Shown one piece after another: positions 43,176 through 63,519 of a stretch of 64,000 bases of DNA. The notes below the pieces were generated by a model, which made no database searches, was not told the DNA's origin, and saw nothing but the letters and a program-made list of their open reading frames with translations. The position numbers and the translations under genes were made by a program. The stretch comes from Gordonia heveisoli. GTDB taxonomy: Bacteria > Actinomycetota > Actinomycetes > Mycobacteriales > Mycobacteriaceae. The DNA lies in the NCBI RefSeq assembly GCF_030315745.1, contig NZ_JASXSH010000004.1:1-64000 (forward strand), read 5' to 3'. Every line of letters starts with the position of its first letter. Position 1 is the stretch's first letter.

Positions 43176-43715
43176 CTAGTGCGGCCCATCCTCACCAGAA
43201 TGGCGAACGCACGGCGACGATGAGGTGATCTCGACCTGCGTTACCGAACCATCCGGGGACGGCGACACCGACATGCTGACCTGAAATCCGCGCGAATCCC
43301 GCAGGACGACGTCACGCGGGTCGTCACCATTGCGGGAGGCCGGCCGGGCCAGGACCTCAAATCCTCGTCCGGCCAGCGTCAGCACCGCATCCCGCCGTTG
43401 CTGAATCTGCTCATCGGTGACTCCAGAATGCCGACGCTGGACCTTGTACCACCACGGCGGACCCTGCGGCAACGCGGATGGAAACGCGGTGTCGCATCCG
43501 TATTCCTGCACCTTGGCGGTGTCCTGGGGTACCGATGCACTCCCCGGATCCACCGCATCGAGATTCTCGCTGATGATCGCGAGTACCTGTGCCTTCGGCA
43601 TCGACAACCCTTGATCATCATCATCGTCGGAAAACAATCCGCACCCACTCACCGCCAGCGCGACGACGAATCCGGCGACAATCGTCACTCGTCGCCGACC
43701 GCGCGCGGGGTTCAT
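43176..43715 (-). CDS. Lipoprotein, candidate immunity protein of type VII effector cassette 1
   Basis: The 179-residue protein has the signal TIVAGFVVALAVSGCGLFSDD with lipobox VSGC, so it is a surface lipoprotein. Acidic residues follow (DDDDD). The mature domain includes a Cys pair (YGCDTAF and SSPCVRHS) and WYKVQRRH. I recognise no named domain. Its ATG overlaps the stop of the DUF1023 hydrolase by 4 bases, so the two are translationally coupled. In polymorphic-toxin logic a lipoprotein directly after the effector is a plausible immunity protein, but there is no direct evidence. It could instead be a secretion or sensing partner. Confidence 0.8.
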   Translation of the reverse strand: MNPARGRRRVTIVAGFVVALAVSGCGLFSDDDDDQGLSMPKAQVLAIISENLDAVDPGSASVPQDTAKVQEYGCDTAFPSALPQGPPWWYKVQRRHSGVTDEQIQQRRDAVLTLAGRGFEVLARPASRNGDDPRDVVLRDSRGFQVSMSVSPSPDGSVTQVEITSSSPCVRHSGEDGPH

Positions 43716-45400
43716 CGCCCACCAGGTATGAGCAAGTCGTTTGGCATCGGCCCCGGGGCGAGAATCATCGGCGGCGGATCCGTGTTCTCCAGGCGGCTGT
43801 CGGGTGCGCGCCATACGTACGGGGTCGGCTCTTCCCCCTTGATGACCTTGACCATGTTCTGGAATGCGTCCGACTTGGGATCGTCCCAGTACTTGCCGTG
43901 TCCGTCTGAACCCCATACCAGCTTTCCTGGAAAGTCCTTGTTGTCCGCGCCGAAATATCCAGTGTCCATTCGCGTCACACCTGGCGCGGTGTCCGGATCG
44001 CCCCCGTGCTGGGTGGCCATGCCTTGGAAGTATTGAATCGGATCTCCGGGCGCAGTCATCGAATACCGCTCGACGTCCGGATTCGGGTTCGACCACGGCT
44101 GATCATCCAAGGTACCGATTCCCGCCGATGACGCATAGATCACGCGATCGGCATTGAGCCCCATCTGTTCTGCGGTACCGACGATCGATCCACCGTACGA
44201 GTGACCAAGGAAAGTCGTCTTCGCTTGCGGCGCAGTTGTGTCTAGCGTGCGGTCGAGTTCATGACCGAAGGCCACCAGATCTGGCGCCATTCGTTTAGCC
44301 ATCGTGGTGTCCATCGCATCGTTGTCGCTGAACGGGTCGACAAATGCGGAGACGCTGCCGCCATGCGGGAATTCTCCGTCCATGTACAAGATCACCGGAC
44401 CGCCGGAGCGATTCGCCAAGTTCCACGCCGCATTATGGTTGGACTGGCTACCATCGAGCGTGGAGTTCGTACCGGGTACGTAGACTGCGACGTTGCGGGT
44501 ATTCGGTCCGATCGCGCCGACAATTTCGATCATGTTGCCATGCGGAGTGTTCTCGAACGCCAAGAAGGTGCGCTCCACCATTCCATTGTCCGCACCATTT
44601 GGCCCAGAAAGAGGGTCCTCAATGGGTTCGAGCATCGCCTTCAACTGGTTGATGCGGCCTTCATTCCGCGGATACTTCTGCTCCTCATCAGCCAGCGCGG
44701 CGCGGATATTGACCTCATTGGCGTCGATCCGCACCGGGAATGGGACGCCGTCCATATTGCCCACTGCCTGCGGGTCGGCCTGCGCAAGCCTGCGCACCTG
44801 TTCAGGCGTCATCTCAGACAGCAGCGCGGCGCGCTCATCCGGGGTCATCGATCCCAAGCGCTTGACGAGTGCATCTGGGTCAATCTGACCGATTCCCGGA
44901 ACGTCGATGTCGGGTTGACCATCGATCATCGAGGCGAGATCGGAAACCAGACCCTCCAGTTTCGCGCCGTATGTCTCGTCAAGACGGGCAATCGTGTCCA
45001 ACCCACTGTTGATACGCACTTGGATGGTCAGCGCTTCATCAGTCTTCTCCGGATGCGAAACCTCAACATTTCCGGTGAGCTTAAATCCTCCCGCAATCGC
45101 GGAATTTGCTTCTCGCAGCACAAAATCTTTCGCATATTCCAGGTCTGTCGCCGCCTCTTGCAACTCATCACCTATTTGTGCGAAAACACTTCTGAGTTCG
45201 TTCACATGGTCGCTCTCCTGCTTTATCTTGGCATCTGCGGCATCATGTGTCCGACCAGTCCAGCTTCCAACCTTATTCATCGTCCGAACTGCATCGTCCA
45301 TCCAATAATCAAGCGTATCCGCGGTAAACAGCGTTTCGGTGGCCGCACTTACCAGAGTGCCGATGTCCCACGTCTTCAACTGCGCGATCGTCGGCCGCAT
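43712..45400 (-). CDS. DUF1023 alpha/beta hydrolase, putative type VII secreted effector
   Basis: This 562-residue protein has a long helical N-terminal region (1-165) resembling the LXG/WXG-like leader of secreted actinobacterial toxins. The linker MTPEQVRRLAQADPQAVGNM DGVP lies near 197-220. A DUF1023 alpha/beta hydrolase domain covers about 290-510. The triad can be placed at Ser401 in LGHSYGGS, Asp453 in APGDPIQYF and His501 in GSDGHGKYW. It would attack an ester, lipid or similar bond. It sits between an EspC-like protein and a lipoprotein, with overlaps of 1 and 4 bases. Neighbouring sequence looks less GC-rich than the core genes, which suggests transfer. Secretion and toxicity are inferred. 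Confidence 0.85.
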   Translation of the reverse strand: MRPTIAQLKTWDIGTLVSAATETLFTADTLDYWMDDAVRTMNKVGSWTGRTHDAADAKIKQESDHVNELRSVFAQIGDELQEAATDLEYAKDFVLREANSAIAGGFKLTGNVEVSHPEKTDEALTIQVRINSGLDTIARLDETYGAKLEGLVSDLASMIDGQPDIDVPGIGQIDPDALVKRLGSMTPDERAALLSEMTPEQVRRLAQADPQAVGNMDGVPFPVRIDANEVNIRAALADEEQKYPRNEGRINQLKAMLEPIEDPLSGPNGADNGMVERTFLAFENTPHGNMIEIVGAIGPNTRNVAVYVPGTNSTLDGSQSNHNAAWNLANRSGGPVILYMDGEFPHGGSVSAFVDPFSDNDAMDTTMAKRMAPDLVAFGHELDRTLDTTAPQAKTTFLGHSYGGSIVGTAEQMGLNADRVIYASSAGIGTLDDQPWSNPNPDVERYSMTAPGDPIQYFQGMATQHGGDPDTAPGVTRMDTGYFGADNKDFPGKLVWGSDGHGKYWDDPKSDAFQNMVKVIKGEEPTPYVWRAPDSRLENTDPPPMILAPGPMPNDLLIPGGR

Positions 45401-45807
45401 CAGCGCAGTCGCAGACTCTCGATGCCGCGCGCCGCGGCACCGTCGGCGTCGACGACCTTGGTGGTGAAGATGCGAATATTTGCGGCCAGTGCGTCGAGCC
45501 TGTCCGCCACCGACGCAATAGACTTCTTGGCCGGATCATGGCCGGCCACGGCGGCCGCGCCGATACGACTACCCGGCATCGAGACCTCAGAAAGCGTGAG
45601 GCACTCATACTGCCGAATAGCGGTGGCCTGCCCTTCCCACTCCCCTGCCATCGTGGTTACCGCTTCGGGCTGGATTCCGAAACGCTGAGGCTGTCCGGGC
45701 GGCACCTGCGTCGGAGTCGGCGGCGCCGGCGTCGGGGAGGTCGGTTCCGGCCTCGGCGCCCGCGGAGTAGGTGCCGAGGGTGTAGGAGTAACCGAAGGTG
45801 TAGTCAT
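45400..45807 (-). CDS. EspC-like (type VII secretion target) small protein, cassette 1
   Basis: The 135-residue protein has a Pro/Thr-rich N-terminal tail of about 40 residues (TPSAPTPRAPRPEPTSPTP), then a helical-hairpin domain starting FGIQPEAVTTMAGEWEG. It ends IRIFTTKVVDADGAAARGIESL. The last motif, with ADG and a following Gly-Ile, matches the EspC/DUF2580 family of type VII secretion targets. It probably pairs with the hydrolase encoded next (1-base overlap). The ATG follows GGGGGGAAC. The Pro-rich tail before the helical domain is unusual for this family. Confidence 0.75.
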   Translation of the reverse strand: MTTPSVTPTPSAPTPRAPRPEPTSPTPAPPTPTQVPPGQPQRFGIQPEAVTTMAGEWEGQATAIRQYECLTLSEVSMPGSRIGAAAVAGHDPAKKSIASVADRLDALAANIRIFTTKVVDADGAAARGIESLRLR

Positions 45808-55478: not shown

Positions 55479-56570
55479 TCAGTTGAACTGAATGCGTGCC
55501 TGTGCGCGACCGAAGATCTTGCGGTCGCCCTGCTTGCCGACCAGTGCGATGACACCCTGACGGGTCTCGGCGTCCAGCGACTTGATCTTGCCGGTGAAGT
55601 CCACCGCCGCACTGTCGTCGGCGGGCACGTACACCGGGCTGGTGAACCGCACGTTGTACTCGCAGAAGGCGGCCGGATCACCGATGAACTCGGAGATGAA
55701 CGTCGCACCCAGACCCATCGTCTGCATACCGTGCGCGACCACACCATCGAGCCCCGCGGCCGAGGTGAGGTGGTCGGAGAAGTGGATGGGGTTGGGATCG
55801 CCGGCGACACCGGCATAGTTCGTCAGGTTGCCGCGGGTCAGCAGGAAACGCTTGGCGGGCAGTTCCTGGCCGACGGTCAAGGTGTCGAAGTTGATCGCGC
55901 CGTAGGCGGCAGGCGACTGCGTCGGGTCGGGCAGGGCGTAGCGCGCGGGCTGCGGCTCCACGGTCCGGCCGGCGACACCGGTCTTGTCGACCTTCATCAT
56001 CACGTGGTCGAGCGACTCGGCCAGGGCCGGATCGACCTCCATGCCGGGGCGCGCCGCGAGCGAGGTGTAGGTGGTCATCACCGGCTCGTCGTGCTGGTTG
56101 AAGATGACGTTCTTGGTGACCATGAGGTCGATCATCTCGGGGCTCGTGACATGCCGGAACGAGTGCAGCGAGACGTCACACACCAGTTGGTCGCCGACCT
56201 TCATCGGCTGGTGGTAGACCAGACGCTGGTCGGTCTGCATGATCTGCCACAGGTCGTAGCCGGTGACGACCTCTTCGAAGAGTTTGCGCTGGGCGATGAT
56301 GCCCATCACCGAGACATAGGTGGGGGCCGCGATCAGCGTGTCATGACCGAGGGCGCGCGCGGATTCCAGATCCCAGTGGGTGGGGTGGGCGTCCTGCACG
56401 GCCAGGGCGTGCTTGCGGACTTCCTCACGGCCGATCTCGTAGTAGTCGTCGACGGTGTAGTTGAAGCCGACCAGGGCCTTGGTCTGCTCCGCAATCTCCT
56501 CGGGAGTCAACTTCGCACTCCTTCCGCCGCCGAATTGTTCTTTCAGTTCGGCATCGGTGATCTGGGTCAT
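55479..56570 (-). CDS. hadAB: Fused (3R)-hydroxyacyl-ACP dehydratase HadA/HadB
   Basis: The 363-residue protein joins a HadA-type N-terminal hot-dog domain (residues 20-175) to a HadB-type MaoC domain (230-360). The hydratase motif GDPNPIHFSD places the catalytic Asp258 and His263 in the second half. In mycobacteria these are two genes, hadA and hadB, feeding FAS-II mycolic acid elongation. The fusion here would hold the heterodimer in one chain. The ATG at 56570 was chosen; the upstream extension has no support. The spacer 55301-55478 shows no gene. Confidence 0.93.
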   Translation of the reverse strand: MTQITDAELKEQFGGGRSAKLTPEEIAEQTKALVGFNYTVDDYYEIGREEVRKHALAVQDAHPTHWDLESARALGHDTLIAAPTYVSVMGIIAQRKLFEEVVTGYDLWQIMQTDQRLVYHQPMKVGDQLVCDVSLHSFRHVTSPEMIDLMVTKNVIFNQHDEPVMTTYTSLAARPGMEVDPALAESLDHVMMKVDKTGVAGRTVEPQPARYALPDPTQSPAAYGAINFDTLTVGQELPAKRFLLTRGNLTNYAGVAGDPNPIHFSDHLTSAAGLDGVVAHGMQTMGLGATFISEFIGDPAAFCEYNVRFTSPVYVPADDSAAVDFTGKIKSLDAETRQGVIALVGKQGDRKIFGRAQARIQFN

Positions 56571-56652
56571 CGGCTTACCACTCCTTTGTATGCCACGCCA
56601 CGGGAGTCGGACCGACAATCAGTCCGAGGCACGAAAGCAGCGCGTAAAACAA

Positions 56653-56685
56653 TCAGCGGGCCACCTCGGTGAGGCGGCCCGCTGA
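56653..56685 (-). terminator. Terminator after rpmG
   Basis: TCAGCGGGCC pairs with GGCCCGCTGA, extended by CCTC/GAGG around GGT; on the minus strand TTGTTTT follows. It lies between the rpmG stop and the hadAB start, so hadAB has its own promoter in 56571-56652 or relies on read-through. Confidence 0.88.
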
Positions 56686-56722
56686 TCTGAAACTTCTGTG
56701 CCGGATACGCCGACGCGAAGCG

Positions 56723-56890
56723 TCAGCGCGATTCCTTGTGCGCCTGGTGCTTGCCGCAGTTCGGGCAGAACTTCTTGATCTCGAGACGATCGGGATCGTT
56801 GCGACGATTCTTCTTGGTGATGTAGTTACGGTGCTTGCACACCTCGCATGCCAAGGTGATCTTGGGGCGAACATCTGTGGAGGAGGCCAC
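56723..56890 (-). CDS. rpmG: 50S ribosomal protein L33
   Basis: This 55-residue protein reads [20 protein letters not shown] and [15 protein letters not shown]. Both CxxC pairs are present, so it is the zinc-binding (C+) form. The GTG start follows GAAAGAAGGCAATCA. It is followed by a strong terminator and lies upstream of hadAB, matching my recollection of the rpmG2-had order in mycobacteria. Confidence 0.95.
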
Positions 56891-56987
56891 TTGATTGCCT
56901 TCTTTCGGGTGGTACGTGGTCGAGGTCGTCGGCTGCCGTGTGGCCTCGACCTATGCGCTCGGTGCCGAACTATTCGGAACCGATGTG

Positions 56988-57061
56988 TAGCGGTGGAGGG
57001 ACTCGATCCCTCGACCTCACGATTATGAGTCGTGCGCTCTAACCAGCTGAGCTACACCGCC
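56988..57061 (-). tRNA. tRNA-Met (CAT), elongator type
   Basis: A 74-base minus-strand tRNA. The acceptor GGCGGTG pairs with CACCGCT, the anticodon loop CTCATAA carries CAT, and the T-arm is GAGGGATCGAGTCCCTC-like. The paired first position argues against the initiator tRNA. Confidence 0.95.
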
Positions 57062-57085
57062 CCGTTGGACTAGTCTCGTCCAGCG

Positions 57086-57158
57086 AGCCCCCTGACGGAA
57101 TCGAACCGTCGACCTTTTCCTTACCATGGAAACGCTCTGCCGACTGAGCTAAGGGGGC
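57086..57158 (-). tRNA. tRNA-Thr (GGT)
   Basis: A 73-base minus-strand tRNA. The acceptor GCCCCCT pairs with AGGGGGC and the discriminator is T. The anticodon loop ATGGTAA carries GGT, with stem TTTCC/GGAAA. It lies 24 bases upstream of tRNA-Met. Confidence 0.96.
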
Positions 57159-57225
57159 GTTGTCCCGATCCCCCGCGGTCTTCACCGCGGCGGCTCGTGA
57201 GCCTTAACGAGGTTACACATCCTTC

Positions 57226-57268
57226 TGCTCGCTGACCAAATCCCCAGGCGGGGCCTGCTCAGCGAGCA
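57226..57268. repeat. 10-bp inverted repeat between tRNA-Thr and tRNA-Tyr
   Basis: TGCTCGCTGA at 57226-57235 pairs with TCAGCGAGCA at 57259-57268. It lies 25 bases past the end of tRNA-Tyr. It may help terminate or process the tRNA-Tyr transcript, although no T-run follows on the minus strand. Confidence 0.6.
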
Positions 57269-57292
57269 AAATATGGATGAATCACCACGTTG

Positions 57293-57373
57293 TGGCAGGT
57301 ATAGGATTCGAACCTATGTAGCTTGCGCGACGGATTTACAGTCCGCTCCCTTTGGCCGCTCGGGCAACCTGCC
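57293..57373 (-). tRNA. tRNA-Tyr (GTA)
   Basis: An 81-base class II tRNA with a long variable arm (CGTCGCGCAAGCTACA region). The acceptor GGCAGGT pairs with ACCTGCC, and the anticodon loop CTGTAAA carries GTA. The spacer 57374-57610 towards yajQ shows no gene. Confidence 0.96.
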
Positions 57374-57610
57374 GTGCAGTTCTCCGCGCCGGCGAACCAG
57401 TGCGATGAACAACGCCGAGAAGAATACAACGAAGTGCCCGCCTACATACAAACCGGCAGGTCAGAGGCCTCGTTGACGACCCCCGGCGTCACGTTACCCG
57501 CCCCCACCCGCGCCGGCGCGACGACCCGAACGCAGCCCCGCCATCGGGTCGGAGCCCTTCGGCGCCCACTCCCGACATGTCGCCGACATCACCCGGCTAC
57601 CCTGTCGGTC

Positions 57611-58102
57611 ATGGCTGATTCATCGTTCGACGTGGTGAGCAAGATCGACCGCCAGGAGGTCGACAACGCCCTCAACCAGGCCGCCAAGGAACTGGCGCAG
57701 CGCTACGACTTCCGCGGCACCAACACCAGCATCGCCTGGTCCGGCGAAGAGGTGATCGTCATCACCTCCGACGCCGAGGAGCGCGCCCAGGCGGGCCTGG
57801 AGGTCTTCAAGGAGAAGCTGATCCGCCGCGACATCTCACTCAAGGCCTTCGACGCCGGCGAGGTCCAGGCCTCGGGCAAGACCTACAAGATCTCCGGCAC
57901 CCTGGTGCAGGGCATCGATTCCGAACACGCCAAGAAGATCTCCAAGAAGATCCGCGACGAGGGTCCGAAGGGCGTGAAGGCGCAGATCCAGGGCGACGAA
58001 CTGCGGGTGTCGAGCAAGAAGCGCGACGATCTGCAGGCCGTGATCGCTCTCCTCAAGGGCGCCGATCTCGACATCGCGCTGCAGTTCGTCAACTACCGCT
58101 GA
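57611..58102 (+). CDS. YajQ-family cyclic-di-GMP-binding protein (UPF0234)
   Basis: This 163-residue protein starts [20 protein letters not shown], with [29 protein letters not shown] and [20 protein letters not shown], all diagnostic of YajQ. The family binds nucleotides or cyclic-di-GMP in some bacteria; in actinobacteria its role is unknown. The ATG at 57611 is well placed at the family's usual start. It is followed by htpX in the same direction. Confidence 0.93.
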
Positions 58103-58214
58103 CCCAGCGCGCCCACCGCTCGGCGCCGATCCCGGGAACCCGAATCGGCCTCTGCTTCGTTTGAGAAGATGAAACGTCCGCATCCATCGCGGGCGAGTGA
58201 CAAACGAGGATCTG

Positions 58215-59075
58215 ATGCATTTCAACGGTTTGAAGACCGCGTTCCTGCTGGGTTTGATGTCGGCGCTGATCGTCGGCATCGGCGCGCTCTTCCGCAGCCC
58301 CGTCATCCTGTGGGGTTCGGTGATCGTGGCGATCGGCATGAACGCCTACGTGTACTTCAACAGCGCCAAACTGTCGCTGAAGGCGATGCACGCGCAGCCG
58401 GTGACCGAGGTCGAGGCCCCGGTGCTGTATCGGATCGTGCGTGAACTCGCGACGTCGGCGCACCAGCCGATGCCTGCCCTGTACATCAGCCCGACGGAGT
58501 CACCCAACGCCTTCGCGACGGGTCGCAACCCGAAGAACGCGGCCGTCTGCTGCACCACCGGCATCCTGCGTCTACTCGACGAACGTGAACTGCGTGCGGT
58601 CCTCGGCCACGAGCTGTCGCATGTCTACAACCGCGACATCCTGATCAGTTCGGTGGCCGGTGCGATGGCCGCGATCATCAGCGGTCTGGCGAACTTCGCG
58701 ATGTTCTTCGGCGCCTTCGGCGGCAACCGCGAGAACGGCCCCAACCCGCTGGTGATGATGCTGGTGGCGCTGGTCGGCCCGATCGCGGCGACGATGGTCA
58801 AGATGGCGGTGTCGCGTTCGCGCGAGTTCCAGGCCGACGCATCGGGCGCCGAACTGACCGGCGACCCGCTGGCCCTGGCATCGGCGCTGGCGAAGATCTC
58901 CGGCGGCGTCCAGGCCGCGCCGCTGCCGCCGAACCCCGACATCGCCGCGCAGTCGCACATGATGATCGAGAGCCCGTTCCGCGCCTCGGACAAGATGGCG
59001 AAGATGTTCTCCACCCATCCCCCGACCGAGGAGCGCATCGCGCGGCTGCAGGAGATGGCCCGCCGCGGGCAGTGA
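58215..59075 (+). CDS. htpX: Zinc metalloprotease HtpX
   Basis: The 286-residue membrane protease has two N-terminal transmembrane helices. The HExxH site is [11 protein letters not shown] (residues 132-136). Two more helices follow, then the third zinc ligand Glu in [13 protein letters not shown]. It degrades misfolded membrane proteins. I prefer the ATG at 58215, which follows CGAGGATCTG; a GTG at 58197 adds six residues. Confidence 0.94.
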
Positions 59076-59116
59076 ATCCGCCTCGTTTGTCGCTATCCAC
59101 CCGTTGCGCGCACTGA

Positions 59117-59455
59117 TCACCCAAGCGGAGACTTTCCAAATCCATTGAGCGCAGTAGCGACGCGGCTAATTCCCTCAGTAGTGTCTCCATCAGCAGCCTG
59201 AATGCGAGATGCCAAGGACACGATCCTATTGCCAACGGCCACTAGATCGTTGATCGTGGAGTTAATCTCCGACTCGCACATGCGTGCGAAGATAGCCAAC
59301 TTTGCGCCGGTGTCAAATCCCTGATTCCCAGCCGCAGCAGGCTGCGCTGAATCAAACAACGCAATGAGCGCCCGTCGCGCCTCGTCGGCTTCCGACGAGA
59401 TGATGCCGCCAGCTGACTTCACCGCAGTCGGCTCAATCTCTATCCGATCATTCAC
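59117..59455 (-). CDS. EspC-like (type VII secretion target) small protein, cassette 2
   Basis: The 112-residue protein is a helical hairpin starting IEIEPTAVKSAGGIISSEAD and ending IVSLASRIQAADGDTTEGIS. The end matches the EspC/DUF2580 family and its counterpart in cassette 1, which reads VVDADGAAARGIESL. The GTG start follows AGGAGGACGC. It is the last gene of the cassette, 24 bases after the membrane protein, whereas in cassette 1 the EspC-like gene comes first. It probably forms a secretion dimer with the amidase-type protein. Confidence 0.75.
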   Translation of the reverse strand: MNDRIEIEPTAVKSAGGIISSEADEARRALIALFDSAQPAAAGNQGFDTGAKLAIFARMCESEINSTINDLVAVGNRIVSLASRIQAADGDTTEGISRVATALNGFGKSPLG

Positions 59456-59479
59456 GCGTCCTCCTGAGGTTGATGATCA

Positions 59480-59923
59480 CTAGCCACTTCCGCACGGCAA
59501 TCCACTTCCGTCAGGCCCACCAGCAGGATCGGTCGGCGACCCGACTACAACCAGAAGCGCAAGCACTGTAACTACGACGGCGACAACCAGCAGAGCGCTG
59601 ATCACAACAGACGCCACCGCAACCTGAATGGAACCAAGCGCAGCTCGCGCACCAAGAAGGGCAGCAATCGTCGACCCGAACGCCACGACTGCTGCGATCG
59701 CAATAGCTGTAGCAACGCCGCCGTACATCAAAGCTGACGGCAGCGGCGGCAAGTGAAATGCGCTGCATCCTCCGGCGCGTACCACGCTGATCCACTCGCG
59801 CCTCCTGTTCTCCAAGAGCAGCAGAAATGCGACCGAACCCGCGAGCATCGTTGCTCCAAGCAACGAAAGCACCACGCAGCGCGTCCGTTGCCTACTACCA
59901 GAGGCAGCAGAGGATTCCATCAC
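59480..59923 (-). CDS. Four-helix membrane protein, candidate immunity protein of cassette 2
   Basis: The 147-residue protein has hydrophobic helices near residues 16-37, 66-86, 88-106 and 108-130, with a short Pro/Gly/Cys tail. I recognise no domain family. Its start (GTG 59923 or ATG 59920) overlaps the stop of the amidase-type gene, so it is co-translated with it. A membrane protein directly after a peptidase or amidase-like effector is a common place for an immunity protein; direct evidence is lacking. Confidence 0.75.
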   Translation of the reverse strand: MMESSAASGSRQRTRCVVLSLLGATMLAGSVAFLLLLENRRREWISVVRAGGCSAFHLPPLPSALMYGGVATAIAIAAVVAFGSTIAALLGARAALGSIQVAVASVVISALLVVAVVVTVLALLVVVGSPTDPAGGPDGSGLPCGSG

Positions 59924-61047
59924 CAGGTCTCCTTTGGTCGAACAATCGTGACTGACTGTTGCCCTTCCGATTGCTCAACCATCGGGAGTCGGTCCTGCAG
60001 ACTGTAATCTGCGGCTCCAGGCGTGTGCTGGGCATACAACACCTGACCATCAGGCAATATCCCTGTCACTAGGGCAGTGTGATGACTGAAATCGCCAGAC
60101 TCATTGGGTTGAGCATAATTGAAATACAAGACATCGCCAGGCTGTGCGTCAGACACCGCAATCTGCACACCTCCATTCTCCAGGAAGAACTCCCTTTGAG
60201 CGTCAGCGTTGTACCACGACTTGGTATGAGTGACGCCTTCGACGAACGGCACTCCAAGATCCCCGGCAAGTGACCGGCCCCAGTTATCCCTCTCGAGAGT
60301 CGTCCCCCACCCCGAGCGCCGCTCCTTGAGACCTCCTTCGTTCAGAGATCGAGAAACGAAGTTCGTGCAATTATTTCCAAATACATCAATATCGGCATTA
60401 TTCACGTTGTCACGCGCCCATCGGACTGTCGCAAGAGGATCGTATCCTCGGCCATTTTCCGACAGCGAATTTCTCACGTCACTAGGAATTCCAGGAAGGT
60501 CATAGAGTTCTATAGGAACCGCCCGCTTGAGCATTATTTGCTGCTCTGGCGTCAATCCCGCCCACCAACGCTGAACTCCGGACTCCGGCTGCCCGTACGG
60601 CAGGAGGCCGACAATCTCCTCGACCGCTTTTCGAGTTGCAACGGCTTGCCGTTCCCGCGCATTCTCAGTCGTTATGCTATCGGGATCAACCGCACAGGCC
60701 ACGATCGCTGCTACACAAGCAGAGTCCGCCCTCGCCGCAGAATCGACCGCGTCATCAATCATCGATTGCGCCTCCACCAAAGCCAAGGCCATGCCCGTGA
60801 CATCCGTCACCTGCGCATCGGGTGGAATTGATACCACACCGTTCTCCGATACGGTCAGCCCCTTCGCAATCGCATAGTCGCGCGCCCCATTTAGCATTCG
60901 CTGAGCCGTCGCGACTACGTCTTCAAGGGTATCTAGAGCAGTCGACACGCCACGCGCAAGAATCCCAGTGTCCACCATCCGGTCAGCGCATGTACTCAGA
61001 ACTCCCCTAGCAAGTGTTCCAGTGTGGTCAGGCCAATTCTCAGACAA
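59920..61047 (-). CDS. Amidase_6-type putative type VII secreted effector
   Basis: This 375-residue protein has a helical N-terminal region (1-145) and the linker WWAGLTPEQQIMLKRAVPIE followed by LPGIPSDVR (162-192). A C-terminal Amidase_6/CHAP-like domain begins FGNNCTNFVSRSLNEGG, with Cys227 as nucleophile. His322/323 in DFSHHTALVTG and His341 in YAQHTPGA are the likely partners. Such domains usually cleave peptide or amide bonds in cell wall. The listed start is TTG; the same frame stays open upstream into the polyprenyl synthase gene with no ATG or GTG. The true start, or a 5' truncation, is therefore unresolved. Confidence 0.78.
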   Translation of the reverse strand: MSENWPDHTGTLARGVLSTCADRMVDTGILARGVSTALDTLEDVVATAQRMLNGARDYAIAKGLTVSENGVVSIPPDAQVTDVTGMALALVEAQSMIDDAVDSAARADSACVAAIVACAVDPDSITTENARERQAVATRKAVEEIVGLLPYGQPESGVQRWWAGLTPEQQIMLKRAVPIELYDLPGIPSDVRNSLSENGRGYDPLATVRWARDNVNNADIDVFGNNCTNFVSRSLNEGGLKERRSGWGTTLERDNWGRSLAGDLGVPFVEGVTHTKSWYNADAQREFFLENGGVQIAVSDAQPGDVLYFNYAQPNESGDFSHHTALVTGILPDGQVLYAQHTPGAADYSLQDRLPMVEQSEGQQSVTIVRPKETW

Positions 61048-61103
61048 TGGAGCAACACCGTTGGCATGTATGTTATCCGCCGCCCGCTCCGCCTGGAGAA
61101 TAG

Positions 61104-62120
61104 TCAGCCGATCCGTTCGATGGTGTAGCGCACCAGCGACGACAGCGCCTGATGGGCGGGGCCATCGGGCAATTGGGCCAGTTCGGCGTCGGCGGCGTCG
61201 GCGTACTCCTGCAGCTTGGCGCGCGCGGCGGCCATCCCCGACGATGAGGTGAGCAGATCCAGGGCCTCGGCCACTTCGGCGTCGTCGGTCAGCGGACGCG
61301 TGGTGCCGTCGGCATTGAGCAGCAGTGCACGCAGGCGGTCGGCGGTCGCGTCCTGCTCGCGTAGCGCGTACAGCACCGGCAGGGTGTGCACACCCTCACG
61401 TAGGTCGGTGCCCGGCGTCTTGCCGGAGTCGTCGGAGGCCGACGCGATGTCGATGATGTCGTCGGAGACTTGGAAGGCGACCCCGACGGCGTCCCCGATC
61501 CGCGACAGCCGTTCGACATCCTCTTCGGTGGCCCCGGCCGACATCGACCCGAAGCGCGCGGCGGCGGCGATGAGCGAACCGGTCTTCTCCCACACCACCT
61601 TGAGATAGTGCTCGATGGGGTCTGATCCGGGAGCAACGCCGACCGTCTCACGCATCTGGCCGGTGACCAGTTCGGCGAAGGTCTCGGCGATGATGCGAAC
61701 AGCCTCGGGTCCCAGCGTCGACACCAGACGCGACGCGCGCGCGAAGAGGAAGTCGCCGGAGAGGATGGCGATGCTGTTGGTCCACCGGGCGTTGGCGCTC
61801 GGCGCACCGCGGCGCATCGAAGCCTCGTCCATCACGTCGTCGTGGTAGAGGGTCGCGAGATGGATCATCTCGACGACGGTCGCCGACGTGATGACGTCGG
61901 TACCGCCTGCCCGCGGACCGAATTGCGATGCCAGGATCGCGAACATCGGACGGAACCGCTTGCCCCCGGCCTTGGCCAGATGCGTGGCCGCCTCGGTCAT
62001 CACGTCGTCGCCCGACGACAGTTCGGCCAACAGCAGATCCTCGACCTGCGCCAGCGCGGTGCGTACGGTCTCGGCGAACTCATCCGACACCAGGTCGACC
62101 CCGGCGAATGTGGACTTCAC
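61104..62120 (-). CDS. grcC1: Polyprenyl diphosphate synthase (GrcC1-like)
   Basis: The 338-residue trans-isoprenyl diphosphate synthase has the first Asp-rich motif LYHDDVMDEASMRRG and the second VSDDIIDIASASDDSGK. LAKAGGKRFRPMF and GEKTG-like SLIAAAARFGS fit the fold. It makes the polyprenyl side-chain precursor, probably for menaquinone. The GTG at 62120 follows GGGCCGAGA. It faces the MenJ-type gene divergently; both are neighbours in mycobacteria, to my recollection. Confidence 0.93.
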   Translation of the reverse strand: MKSTFAGVDLVSDEFAETVRTALAQVEDLLLAELSSGDDVMTEAATHLAKAGGKRFRPMFAILASQFGPRAGGTDVITSATVVEMIHLATLYHDDVMDEASMRRGAPSANARWTNSIAILSGDFLFARASRLVSTLGPEAVRIIAETFAELVTGQMRETVGVAPGSDPIEHYLKVVWEKTGSLIAAAARFGSMSAGATEEDVERLSRIGDAVGVAFQVSDDIIDIASASDDSGKTPGTDLREGVHTLPVLYALREQDATADRLRALLLNADGTTRPLTDDAEVAEALDLLTSSSGMAAARAKLQEYADAADAELAQLPDGPAHQALSSLVRYTIERIG

Positions 62121-62244
62121 TCTCGGCCCGCTCCATCTCGTCTCATCCGACGTGCCACTATCGGACGTCGCACATGGTGCCCGCCGAGGTCCGGCGAGCC
62201 TGCCTGCGAGCCTATCCGTTTGTCGGTGACGACATACTGGTCGG

Positions 62245-63519
62245 GTGAACAGCGACACCCAGGGCGCGGCGATCCCCGCAAGTGCCGATGTGCTCATCGT
62301 CGGCGCCGGCCCGGGCGGTTCGGCTGCCGCCGCACACGCCGCGAGCGCCGGACTCGACGTACTGCTCGTCGACGCCGCGGTCTTTCCACGTGACAAGACC
62401 TGCGGCGATGGCCTCACCCCGCGCGCGGTCGCCGAACTTGAACGGCTCGGCTTCGGCGACTATCTCGGCAAACGTCCCCGCATCGACGGCCTGCATCTGA
62501 ACGGCTGGGGCGCCGATCAACGCGTGCGCTGGCCGTCGAGCGTCTTCGGCACTCAGGGCAGCGCGGTGGCGCGTACCGAGATCGACGAACAGATCCGGGC
62601 GCTCGCGGTCTCGCGTGGGGCGCGGATGCTGCAGGGCGCCAAGGCCGTCGACGTCGAGATGGACGGCGACCGGATCTCCTCGGTGATCCTGACGACGCCG
62701 GAGGGACGGTCGTCGGTCGCGGTGCGCGAGGTGATCGTCGCCGACGGGGTGCGCTCGACGCTGGGCAAGGTGCTGGGCCGGCAGTGGCATCGCGACACCG
62801 CCTACGGCGTGGCGGCGCGCGCCTACGTCGACTCCGGACGCGCCGACGACAACTGGATGGGATCGCATCTGGAACTTCGGGGCCCCGACAGTGAGCTGTT
62901 GCCCGGATACGGCTGGGTCTTCCCGCTGGGCAGTGCGGGTGGCGGGCTGGTCAACGTCGGGGTGGGCGCGCTCGCCACGGCGAAGCGGCCCGCGAACATG
63001 CAATTGCGACCCGTGCTGGAGCACTACGCCGAGATGGTGCGCGACGAATGGCAGCTGTCCGGCTCGCCGCACCGGCTGACGTCAGCACTGCTGCCGATGG
63101 GCGGCGCGGTCAGCAATGTCGCCGGACGCAACTGGATGCTCATCGGCGACGCCGCGGCGTGTGTGAACCCGCTCAACGGCGAGGGCATCGACTACGCGCT
63201 GGAGACCGGGCGGCTGGCCGTCGACCTGCTGCTGGAGAACCGAGGCCCGGCCGGCCACACCGACAGCTGGCCGACGATCCTCGTCGAGCATTACGGTCCC
63301 GCCTTCTCCGCGGCCCGACGCCTGGCCGGCCTGCTGACCATGCCCAAGACCGTGCCGATCCTCGGGCGGCCGGGCATCCGGTCGGCGCGACTGATGTCGA
63401 TGGTCGTGCGCGTGATGGGCAATCTGGTCACCCCCGACGACAAGGACCTGATCGCGCGGGCCTGGCGTGGCGTCGGGTCGGTGTCGACGCGGGTCGACGA
63501 TCGTCCCCCGTTCTCGTGA
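62245..63519 (+). CDS. menJ: Geranylgeranyl reductase family protein, MenJ-type menaquinone reductase
   Basis: This 424-residue flavoprotein has the FAD-binding DVLIVGAGPGGSAAAAHAAS, the substrate-binding PRDKTCGDGLTPRAVAEL and the second FAD motif WMLIGDAAACVNPLNGEGID. In mycobacteria the homologue saturates one isoprene of menaquinone. The GTG start is at 62245, 124 bases from the divergent polyprenyl synthase. That linkage fits one menaquinone side-chain function. Confidence 0.9.
   Translation: MNSDTQGAAIPASADVLIVGAGPGGSAAAAHAASAGLDVLLVDAAVFPRDKTCGDGLTPRAVAELERLGFGDYLGKRPRIDGLHLNGWGADQRVRWPSSVFGTQGSAVARTEIDEQIRALAVSRGARMLQGAKAVDVEMDGDRISSVILTTPEGRSSVAVREVIVADGVRSTLGKVLGRQWHRDTAYGVAARAYVDSGRADDNWMGSHLELRGPDSELLPGYGWVFPLGSAGGGLVNVGVGALATAKRPANMQLRPVLEHYAEMVRDEWQLSGSPHRLTSALLPMGGAVSNVAGRNWMLIGDAAACVNPLNGEGIDYALETGRLAVDLLLENRGPAGHTDSWPTILVEHYGPAFSAARRLAGLLTMPKTVPILGRPGIRSARLMSMVVRVMGNLVTPDDKDLIARAWRGVGSVSTRVDDRPPFS

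Follow-up and report, generated by a model that had tools for sequence, protein, structure and literature searches.

A type VII toxin-immunity-like cassette with a truncated Amidase_6 effector gene between grcC1 and htpX of Gordonia heveisoli

The three genes analysed here occupy positions 59,117–61,047 of a 64,000-nucleotide stretch of Gordonia heveisoli DNA (contig NZ_JASXSH010000004.1 of assembly GCF_030315745.1; referred to as the window). They encode an Amidase_6 effector, a membrane protein with probably three transmembrane (3-TM) helices and an EspC-like protein, which are read in this order on the minus strand from the polyprenyl synthase gene grcC1 towards the metalloprotease gene htpX. 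The name grcC1 is presumed from the sequence of the gene rather than taken from a family search. The nearest described systems are the PEST cassettes of mycobacterial prophages (PMC10654092), which were compared by description. These consist of a small WXG100-type partner, a polymorphic toxin with an N-terminal export domain, and an immunity gene. PEST1 and PEST2 are predicted to pair like PE25/PPE41, and plasmids of two PEST systems transformed inefficiently when the immunity gene was left out; the authors state that direct support for any role is lacking (PMC10654092). The present set has a comparable three-gene layout, but it is chromosomal and lies between housekeeping genes, its partner is EspC-like, its toxin ends in an Amidase_6 domain and is truncated in the window, its immunity protein would be of the 3-TM type, and its relatives occur in Gordonia, Nocardia and other genera as well as in Streptomyces. 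It looks like a chromosomal toxin-immunity cassette of the actinobacterial type VII secretion system (T7SSa), made up of an Amidase_6 (NlpC/P60-like) effector, a 3-TM protein and an EspC-like partner. We consider it likely that such cassettes encode a peptidoglycan hydrolase exported by the T7SSa, together with an immunity protein and an EspC-like partner for export, and that the window copy is on its way to becoming an orphan immunity gene.

Several other systems resemble this set in single features. EsxX-ExiCD of Staphylococcus aureus likewise uses polytopic membrane immunity against an extracellular toxin, and its immunity proteins also occur in toxin-less strains, but it is set apart by its description as a T7SSb system with a membrane-depolarising toxin and a two-protein immunity (PMC12744356). 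EsaD-EsaG, TspA-TsaI and TelC-TipC are accompanied by strings of non-identical immunity genes, as is a cassette of genome G375 described below, but they belong to the T7SSb of Bacillota and carry other toxin domains (PMC9484751). Antibacterial use of type VII secretion has been described for Bacillota (T7SSb). The amidase effector of the type VI secretion system (T6SS) pair Tae3-Tai3 (4hz9) has been grouped with Amidase_6 (PMC10318531); it is delivered by the T6SS, whereas the N-terminal domain of the present effectors is of a T7SS-like type and their putative protector is a membrane protein. In the PubMed Central (PMC) literature, no paper linking Amidase_6 to type VII secretion was found, and none on orphan immunity in the actinobacterial T7SSa was found by titles and abstract openings, which does not prove absence from print.

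Insertion of the three genes was examined in 59 Gordonia genomes, and their wider spread in a family sample of 401 genomes, one per species; G000 denotes the window genome, and numbered G labels the other genomes of the sample. The sequence-only reading had suggested an insertion between htpX and a polyprenyl synthase gene. Both flanks matched as named, and comparison of the interval across relatives agreed with this suggestion, as the same genes are not present in all of them. The two flanking genes adjoin each other in 59/59 Gordonia genomes, and the gap between them measures 12–266 bp in 56 of these, with a median of 115 bp. Long gaps were found only in G034 (1260 bp), G054 (1844 bp) and the window genome (2034 bp), and of all 59 genomes only the last carries the cassette there. 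The cassette genes also stand apart by composition, with a GC content of 0.56–0.61 against 0.656 for the window and a third-codon-position GC content of 0.56–0.60 against 0.86 for grcC1 and 0.91 for htpX. Judged by the comparison of the interval, the three genes are an insertion. The 1.26- and 1.84-kb inserts in the same interval of G034 (L065, 2066–3325) and G054 (L066, 2624–4467) were read as open frames and gave no match to the cassette by tblastn; the interval may be an insertion-prone site.

The other five cassette-bearing Gordonia genomes have the set elsewhere, namely between DUF3592 and menD genes (G025, G051, G054 and G013) or between cdsA and rlmN (G044). We take these neighbour names, and likewise menJ, yajQ and TetR, from the look of the sequences rather than from a family search. 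No cassette was found at the window genome's own DUF3592-menD junction. A few direct and inverted repeats of 12–20 nt occur around the insertion, but none are placed at both of its borders, and the search for insertion sequence elements extended to the open reading frames (ORFs) seen. At the junction, GCTGA occurs both at the end of grcC1 and in effector codons, a potential microhomology that is indistinguishable from chance. In a PHROGs scan of the eight proteins of 55,482–63,516, the cassette proteins gave no family match, and the only matches were two unnamed families, hit by HtpX and by the protein of 62,245–63,516. A whole-prophage tool was not applied; with htpX and grcC1 as its flanks, the set was not found to be carried by a prophage as PEST cassettes are. 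As a separate observation, htpX (locus 58,197–59,075 of the window) is convergent to grcC1 in 13 of the 59 Gordonia genomes, including that of the window, and tandem with it in the other 46. It seems to have been flipped in place at least once, because the genomes with the most similar HtpX (G048, 95%; G008, 92%; loci L067 and L068) have the tandem order.

Compared with its relatives, the effector gene of the window is 5'-truncated. The 375-residue protein named in the sequence-only reading corresponds to a real ORF that begins at TTG, but this is not the complete gene, since the 16 relatives with the best scores, setting aside the entry of the window itself, are 413–444 residues long and homology continues upstream of the TTG. 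This codon aligns with residue 44 of a full-length relative (P0003), and homologous codons reach back to residue 28 at position 61,095, where they end 8 nt short of the grcC1 stop codon. The C-terminus of grcC1 resembles those of its relatives. Twenty-seven codons of the effector gene are hence missing together with its start and ribosome-binding site, and no ATG, GTG or TTG was found in the 116 in-frame codons upstream of the TTG. The AlphaFold2 model of P0003 (predicted local distance difference test score, pLDDT, 89.8; predicted template modelling score, pTM, 0.86) places residues 12–27, which correspond to the missing DNA, in a helix of residues 12–47 that would form the first arm of an export hairpin. 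Counted from the TTG, this helix is almost wholly lost, and the export domain of the window copy is incomplete in either case. The membrane-protein and EspC-like genes beside it are both open and preceded by strong ribosome-binding sites. The features are collected in Table 1.

Table 1. Features of the cassette and its borders in the window
Feature	Position	Strand	Remark
HtpX metalloprotease gene	58215..59075	+	Borders the insertion opposite grcC1
EspC-like helical-hairpin protein, 112 aa, GTG start	59117..59455	-	Predicted partner in effector export
Ribosome-binding site (AGGAGG) of the EspC-like gene	59460..59465	-	
Membrane protein, 147 aa, predicted immunity protein	59480..59923	-	Three helices in model
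AAAGGAG, ribosome-binding site of the membrane-protein gene	59929..59935	-	Within the 3' end of the effector gene
Amidase_6 effector remnant, 375 aa	59920..61047	-	Longest open frame from a usual start codon, TTG
Extra in-frame effector DNA, homologous to residues 28–43 of P0003	61048..61095	-	Without a usual start codon
Junction, end of effector homology to grcC1 stop	61096..61106	-	TGA at 61104–61106
grcC1-type polyprenyl diphosphate synthase	61104..62117	-	Coding strand runs towards the cassette

The effector of the window might still work if translation began at the TTG, or at a CTG that overlaps the grcC1 stop codon (CTGA) and would couple it to grcC1 translation, giving a protein of 375 or 395 residues with a shortened first helix. 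The frame is open, the catalytic residues are present, and the overlap of CTG with TGA fits such coupling. Nevertheless, no ribosome-binding site precedes the TTG, whereas a G-rich or AGGAG site precedes the ATG in 5/5 other Gordonia copies, and the lost part falls in the helix of residues 12–47, which makes a working effector unlikely in our estimation. With its start and ribosome-binding site gone, and with the loss of no fewer than 16 of the 36 residues that make up the first export helix in the model, the window copy gives no support to the working effector cassette expected from the sequence-only reading. As far as can be told from sequence, the window strain probably makes no exportable effector, and the set would for the same reason probably provide immunity only, if anything at all. 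The logic of such an orphan immunity gene is comparable to that of ExiCD in S. aureus (PMC12744356) and of the immunity paralogues of other T7SSs (PMC9484751).

The C-terminal part of the effector nevertheless retains the marks of an enzyme. It matched Amidase_6 (PF12671) over residues 202–351 with E = 1.7e-11 and 44.9 bits (Pfam cut-off, 23.2), and a weak match to CHAP stayed under the cut-off (E = 5.5e-5; 24 bits against 26). The CTNF nucleophile motif and downstream His residues noticed in the sequence-only reading are present, as C227 lies within NNCTNF and is followed by H322, H323 and H341 as well as by Q340. C227 and H323 are invariant in 35/35 aligned sequences, window included (alignment A1, which omits seven of 41 homologues: the window's own entry, five short pieces and one with 36% coverage). 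A fold search with the model returned a wall-hydrolase-like fold for this end. Such a fold and an invariant Cys suggest that the amidase end could attack peptidoglycan, as had been proposed. A sequence search of the Protein Data Bank (PDB) with the effector profile gave no better match than E = 0.043, mostly to coiled-coil constructs, with EsxB at 0.66. Among described members of the family, YhbB and YjcM of Bacillus subtilis are listed as uncharacterised (PMC10653849), while Amidase_6 proteins are said to act as amidase effectors with reference to Tae3 (PMC10318531). A survey from 2012 lists NlpC/P60 toxins for the T6SS, PVC and TcdB/TcaC routes (PMC3482391).

An effector match was obtained in 16 of the 401 family genomes, for which at most 4 effector and 10 membrane-gene candidates per genome were scored, and this family is present in 6 of the 59 Gordonia genomes. 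All 16 have both a membrane gene and an EspC-like gene beside the effector, in three gene orders, although the EspC-like gene of G013 is internally deleted. The membrane gene was found in 29/401 genomes, of which 13 gave no effector match. In three of these (G362, G161 and G315), an open membrane gene lies next to effector remnants. Eight others have open membrane genes standing alone (G325, six Gordonia genomes, and G371, which holds two), and the remaining two have partial ones. Together with that of G031, 10 open solitary loci were counted, all of which encode both of the cysteines described below; the criteria were an open frame and the Cys pattern, the start being unsettled for several, and the count leaves out G004 (frameshifted), G398 and G079 (partial) and weak matches above E = 1e-4. 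Some solitary genes lie in the very slots of whole cassettes, namely DUF3592-menD in G041 and cdsA-rlmN in G049 and G016, and one copy of G371 lies between genes like those flanking the G389 cassette. Effectors are broken in three of the six Gordonia cassettes, by the 5' cut in G000, by loss of the catalytic-Cys region with a change of frame in G054, and by in-frame loss of residues 64–342 in G013, while all six have an open membrane frame. In total, an open membrane gene stands beside a broken effector at six loci, window included. The cassette of G375 (L097, 3624–8787) begins with a 700-residue effector in which the cut falls after residue 367 and an Amidase_2-like end takes over (22.9 bits, below the cut-off of 26; E = 1.2e-4). 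Behind it lie an orphan Amidase_6 end, a tandem run of four membrane genes (three intact, one broken) and an EspC-like gene. A Streptomyces locus (sp. CB02923; L014, 6001–7360), in which the effector match ends at residue 319 and is followed by a two-Cys membrane frame, is perhaps another case of a broken toxin with a kept protector.

The dependence between the two genes is therefore one-way, as no effector genome lacks the membrane gene but the converse does not hold, which argues for an immunity role of the membrane protein. Linkage at 16/16 loci, the array of G375 and the 10 solitary loci are together what a linked immunity gene with tandem and orphan copies would leave, and they lend comparative support to the earlier idea that the membrane protein protects the producer. 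Its presence within the cassette at 16/16 loci would also be consistent with an export accessory or a membrane anchor, whose solitary copies would be paralogues with another job. This we regard as improbable, because the gene stays open beside six broken effectors and alone in the same slots, exists in three intact tandem copies in G375, and encodes the most divergent of the three proteins. A further alternative is a housekeeping hydrolase: the amidase would open the wall of the producer for its own T7SS, with the membrane protein as its anchor or regulator. Here the model is EssH of S. aureus, a CHAP-domain Cys-His wall hydrolase linked to and required for T7SSb secretion (PMC13059805), and the weak CHAP match of the window effector points the same way. 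EssH, however, serves its own machine, whereas the present hydrolase is patchy (16/401 and 6/59 genomes), has beside it a membrane gene that can also stand by itself, and in the window genome does not share a contig with the EccB and EccC matches; this alternative would also leave the solitary and tandem membrane genes unexplained. A housekeeping function thus appears very improbable.

The membrane protein has no Pfam family, as the window protein matched only COX14 at E ≤ 1 (E = 0.65). The sequence-only reading described it as a four-helix protein overlapping the effector. The overlap is correct and amounts to 4 nt, but three transmembrane helices are more likely: the model of the window protein (pLDDT 83.3) has helices at residues 5–50, 64–92 and 98–128, and hydropathy gave three segments in most relatives, while a simple scan of the window protein returned four overlapping ones. 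C53, in the loop between the first two helices, and P62 are invariant in alignments A2 and A5 (the latter omitting L104). C144, in the C-terminal tail, is present in 17/18 members of A2, and the remaining member has a terminal Cys. Given the positive residues of the N-terminus and the second loop, both cysteines would lie outside. Of the cassette proteins, the membrane protein diverges most among the four cassettes compared. The ratio of nonsynonymous to synonymous substitution rates (dN/dS) was saturated in comparisons with the window genes; it was 0.35 over 139 codons for the solitary pair G027/G031, and 1.16, resting on four changes, for the pair G025/G054. A two-Cys membrane frame follows the effector at 12/12 Streptomyces loci when hydrophobic open frames are read by eye, and a 3-TM neighbour was found at 2/12 under a hydropathy threshold.

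Export is suggested by the N-terminal part of the effector, since effector residues 1–168 align with PPE15, PPE4 and PPE41 complexes, though this is a helical-type match open to chance. As in secreted PE/PPE pairs, a small helical partner is encoded alongside, but the relatives of this partner match EspC or WXG100, and neither the effector nor the window partner gave a PE/PPE Pfam match. The EspC-like gene behind a perfect AGGAGG that had been noticed earlier is in place. Its label holds at the level of the family, in which 8 of 14 aligned members match PF10824 (best E = 2.7e-6) and 7 match WXG100, both at E ≤ 0.1, but the window protein itself gave no Pfam match, neither to PF10824 nor to WXG100. 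The alignment (A3) omits the internally deleted EspC of G013 and the intact one of G282. Two EccB and two EccC loci were found in the window genome, on a different contig from the cassette. ESX-4 is described as the sole T7SS in Gordonia and Nocardia (PMC11217815).

From fold and family, the PPE-like helical N-terminal domain of a whole effector would pair with the EspC-like protein, and an ESX/T7SS machine would take up the pair. The Amidase_6 domain at the C-terminus, a putative papain/NlpC-type Cys-His enzyme, would then cut peptidoglycan peptides of neighbouring cells. The 3-TM protein is predicted to sit in the producer membrane with its first loop and C-terminal tail outside, perhaps joined by a Cys53-Cys144 pair, and would block the effector outside the cytoplasm, presumably by binding it. 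Protozoa, animal cells or phage-infected cells might be the target instead of bacterial walls, and the authors of the PEST study leave both target and role open (PMC10654092). A non-bacterial target is nonetheless improbable in view of the wall-hydrolase-like fold, the second peptidoglycan-amidase-like end on the scaffold of G375, and the predicted orientation of the protector towards the cell wall. In the window, the membrane-protein and EspC-like genes could be transcribed by read-through from grcC1, and the membrane protein may protect against related effectors. The locus would thus represent a toxin-immunity set becoming an orphan immunity gene, a state that appears complete in some relatives.

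More broadly, the balance tips slightly towards a chromosomal T7SSa arms race shared by Mycobacteriales and Streptomyces, in which Amidase_6 effectors are opposed by a new wall-facing 3-TM two-Cys immunity family that is kept as orphan shields, with the window locus caught in conversion. If this is true, the locus shows a toxin cut at the grcC1 stop codon and an immunity gene readable from a housekeeping gene. The membrane-protein family, which lacks a Pfam model of its own, would supply candidate immunity proteins. Bacterial warfare through T7SSa would become testable with a wall-hydrolase effector and a predictable cell-surface protector, and related Gordonia, in which the cassette is present whole, broken or as an orphan, offer naturally matched strains that could be competed directly.

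A second locus of the window also resembles a type VII cassette. Positions 43,712–45,807 on the minus strand, which are low in GC, encode a 562-residue protein that matches Abhydrolase_8 (E = 5.8e-11) and, below the cut-off, WXG100 (E = 0.0016). Upstream of it lies a 135-residue ORF that is EspC-like by eye only and has no Pfam match; this is probably the first type VII cassette of the sequence-only reading. In the three genomes scanned, Abhydrolase_8 proteins of loci L061, L062 and L063 (G005, G008 and G048; the N-terminal match of G034 being left out) have weak similarity to the N-terminal and linker part of the amidase effector (E = 4e-6 to 3e-5). The amidase effector and the Abhydrolase_8 proteins may therefore share a common T7SS scaffold with exchangeable enzymes.
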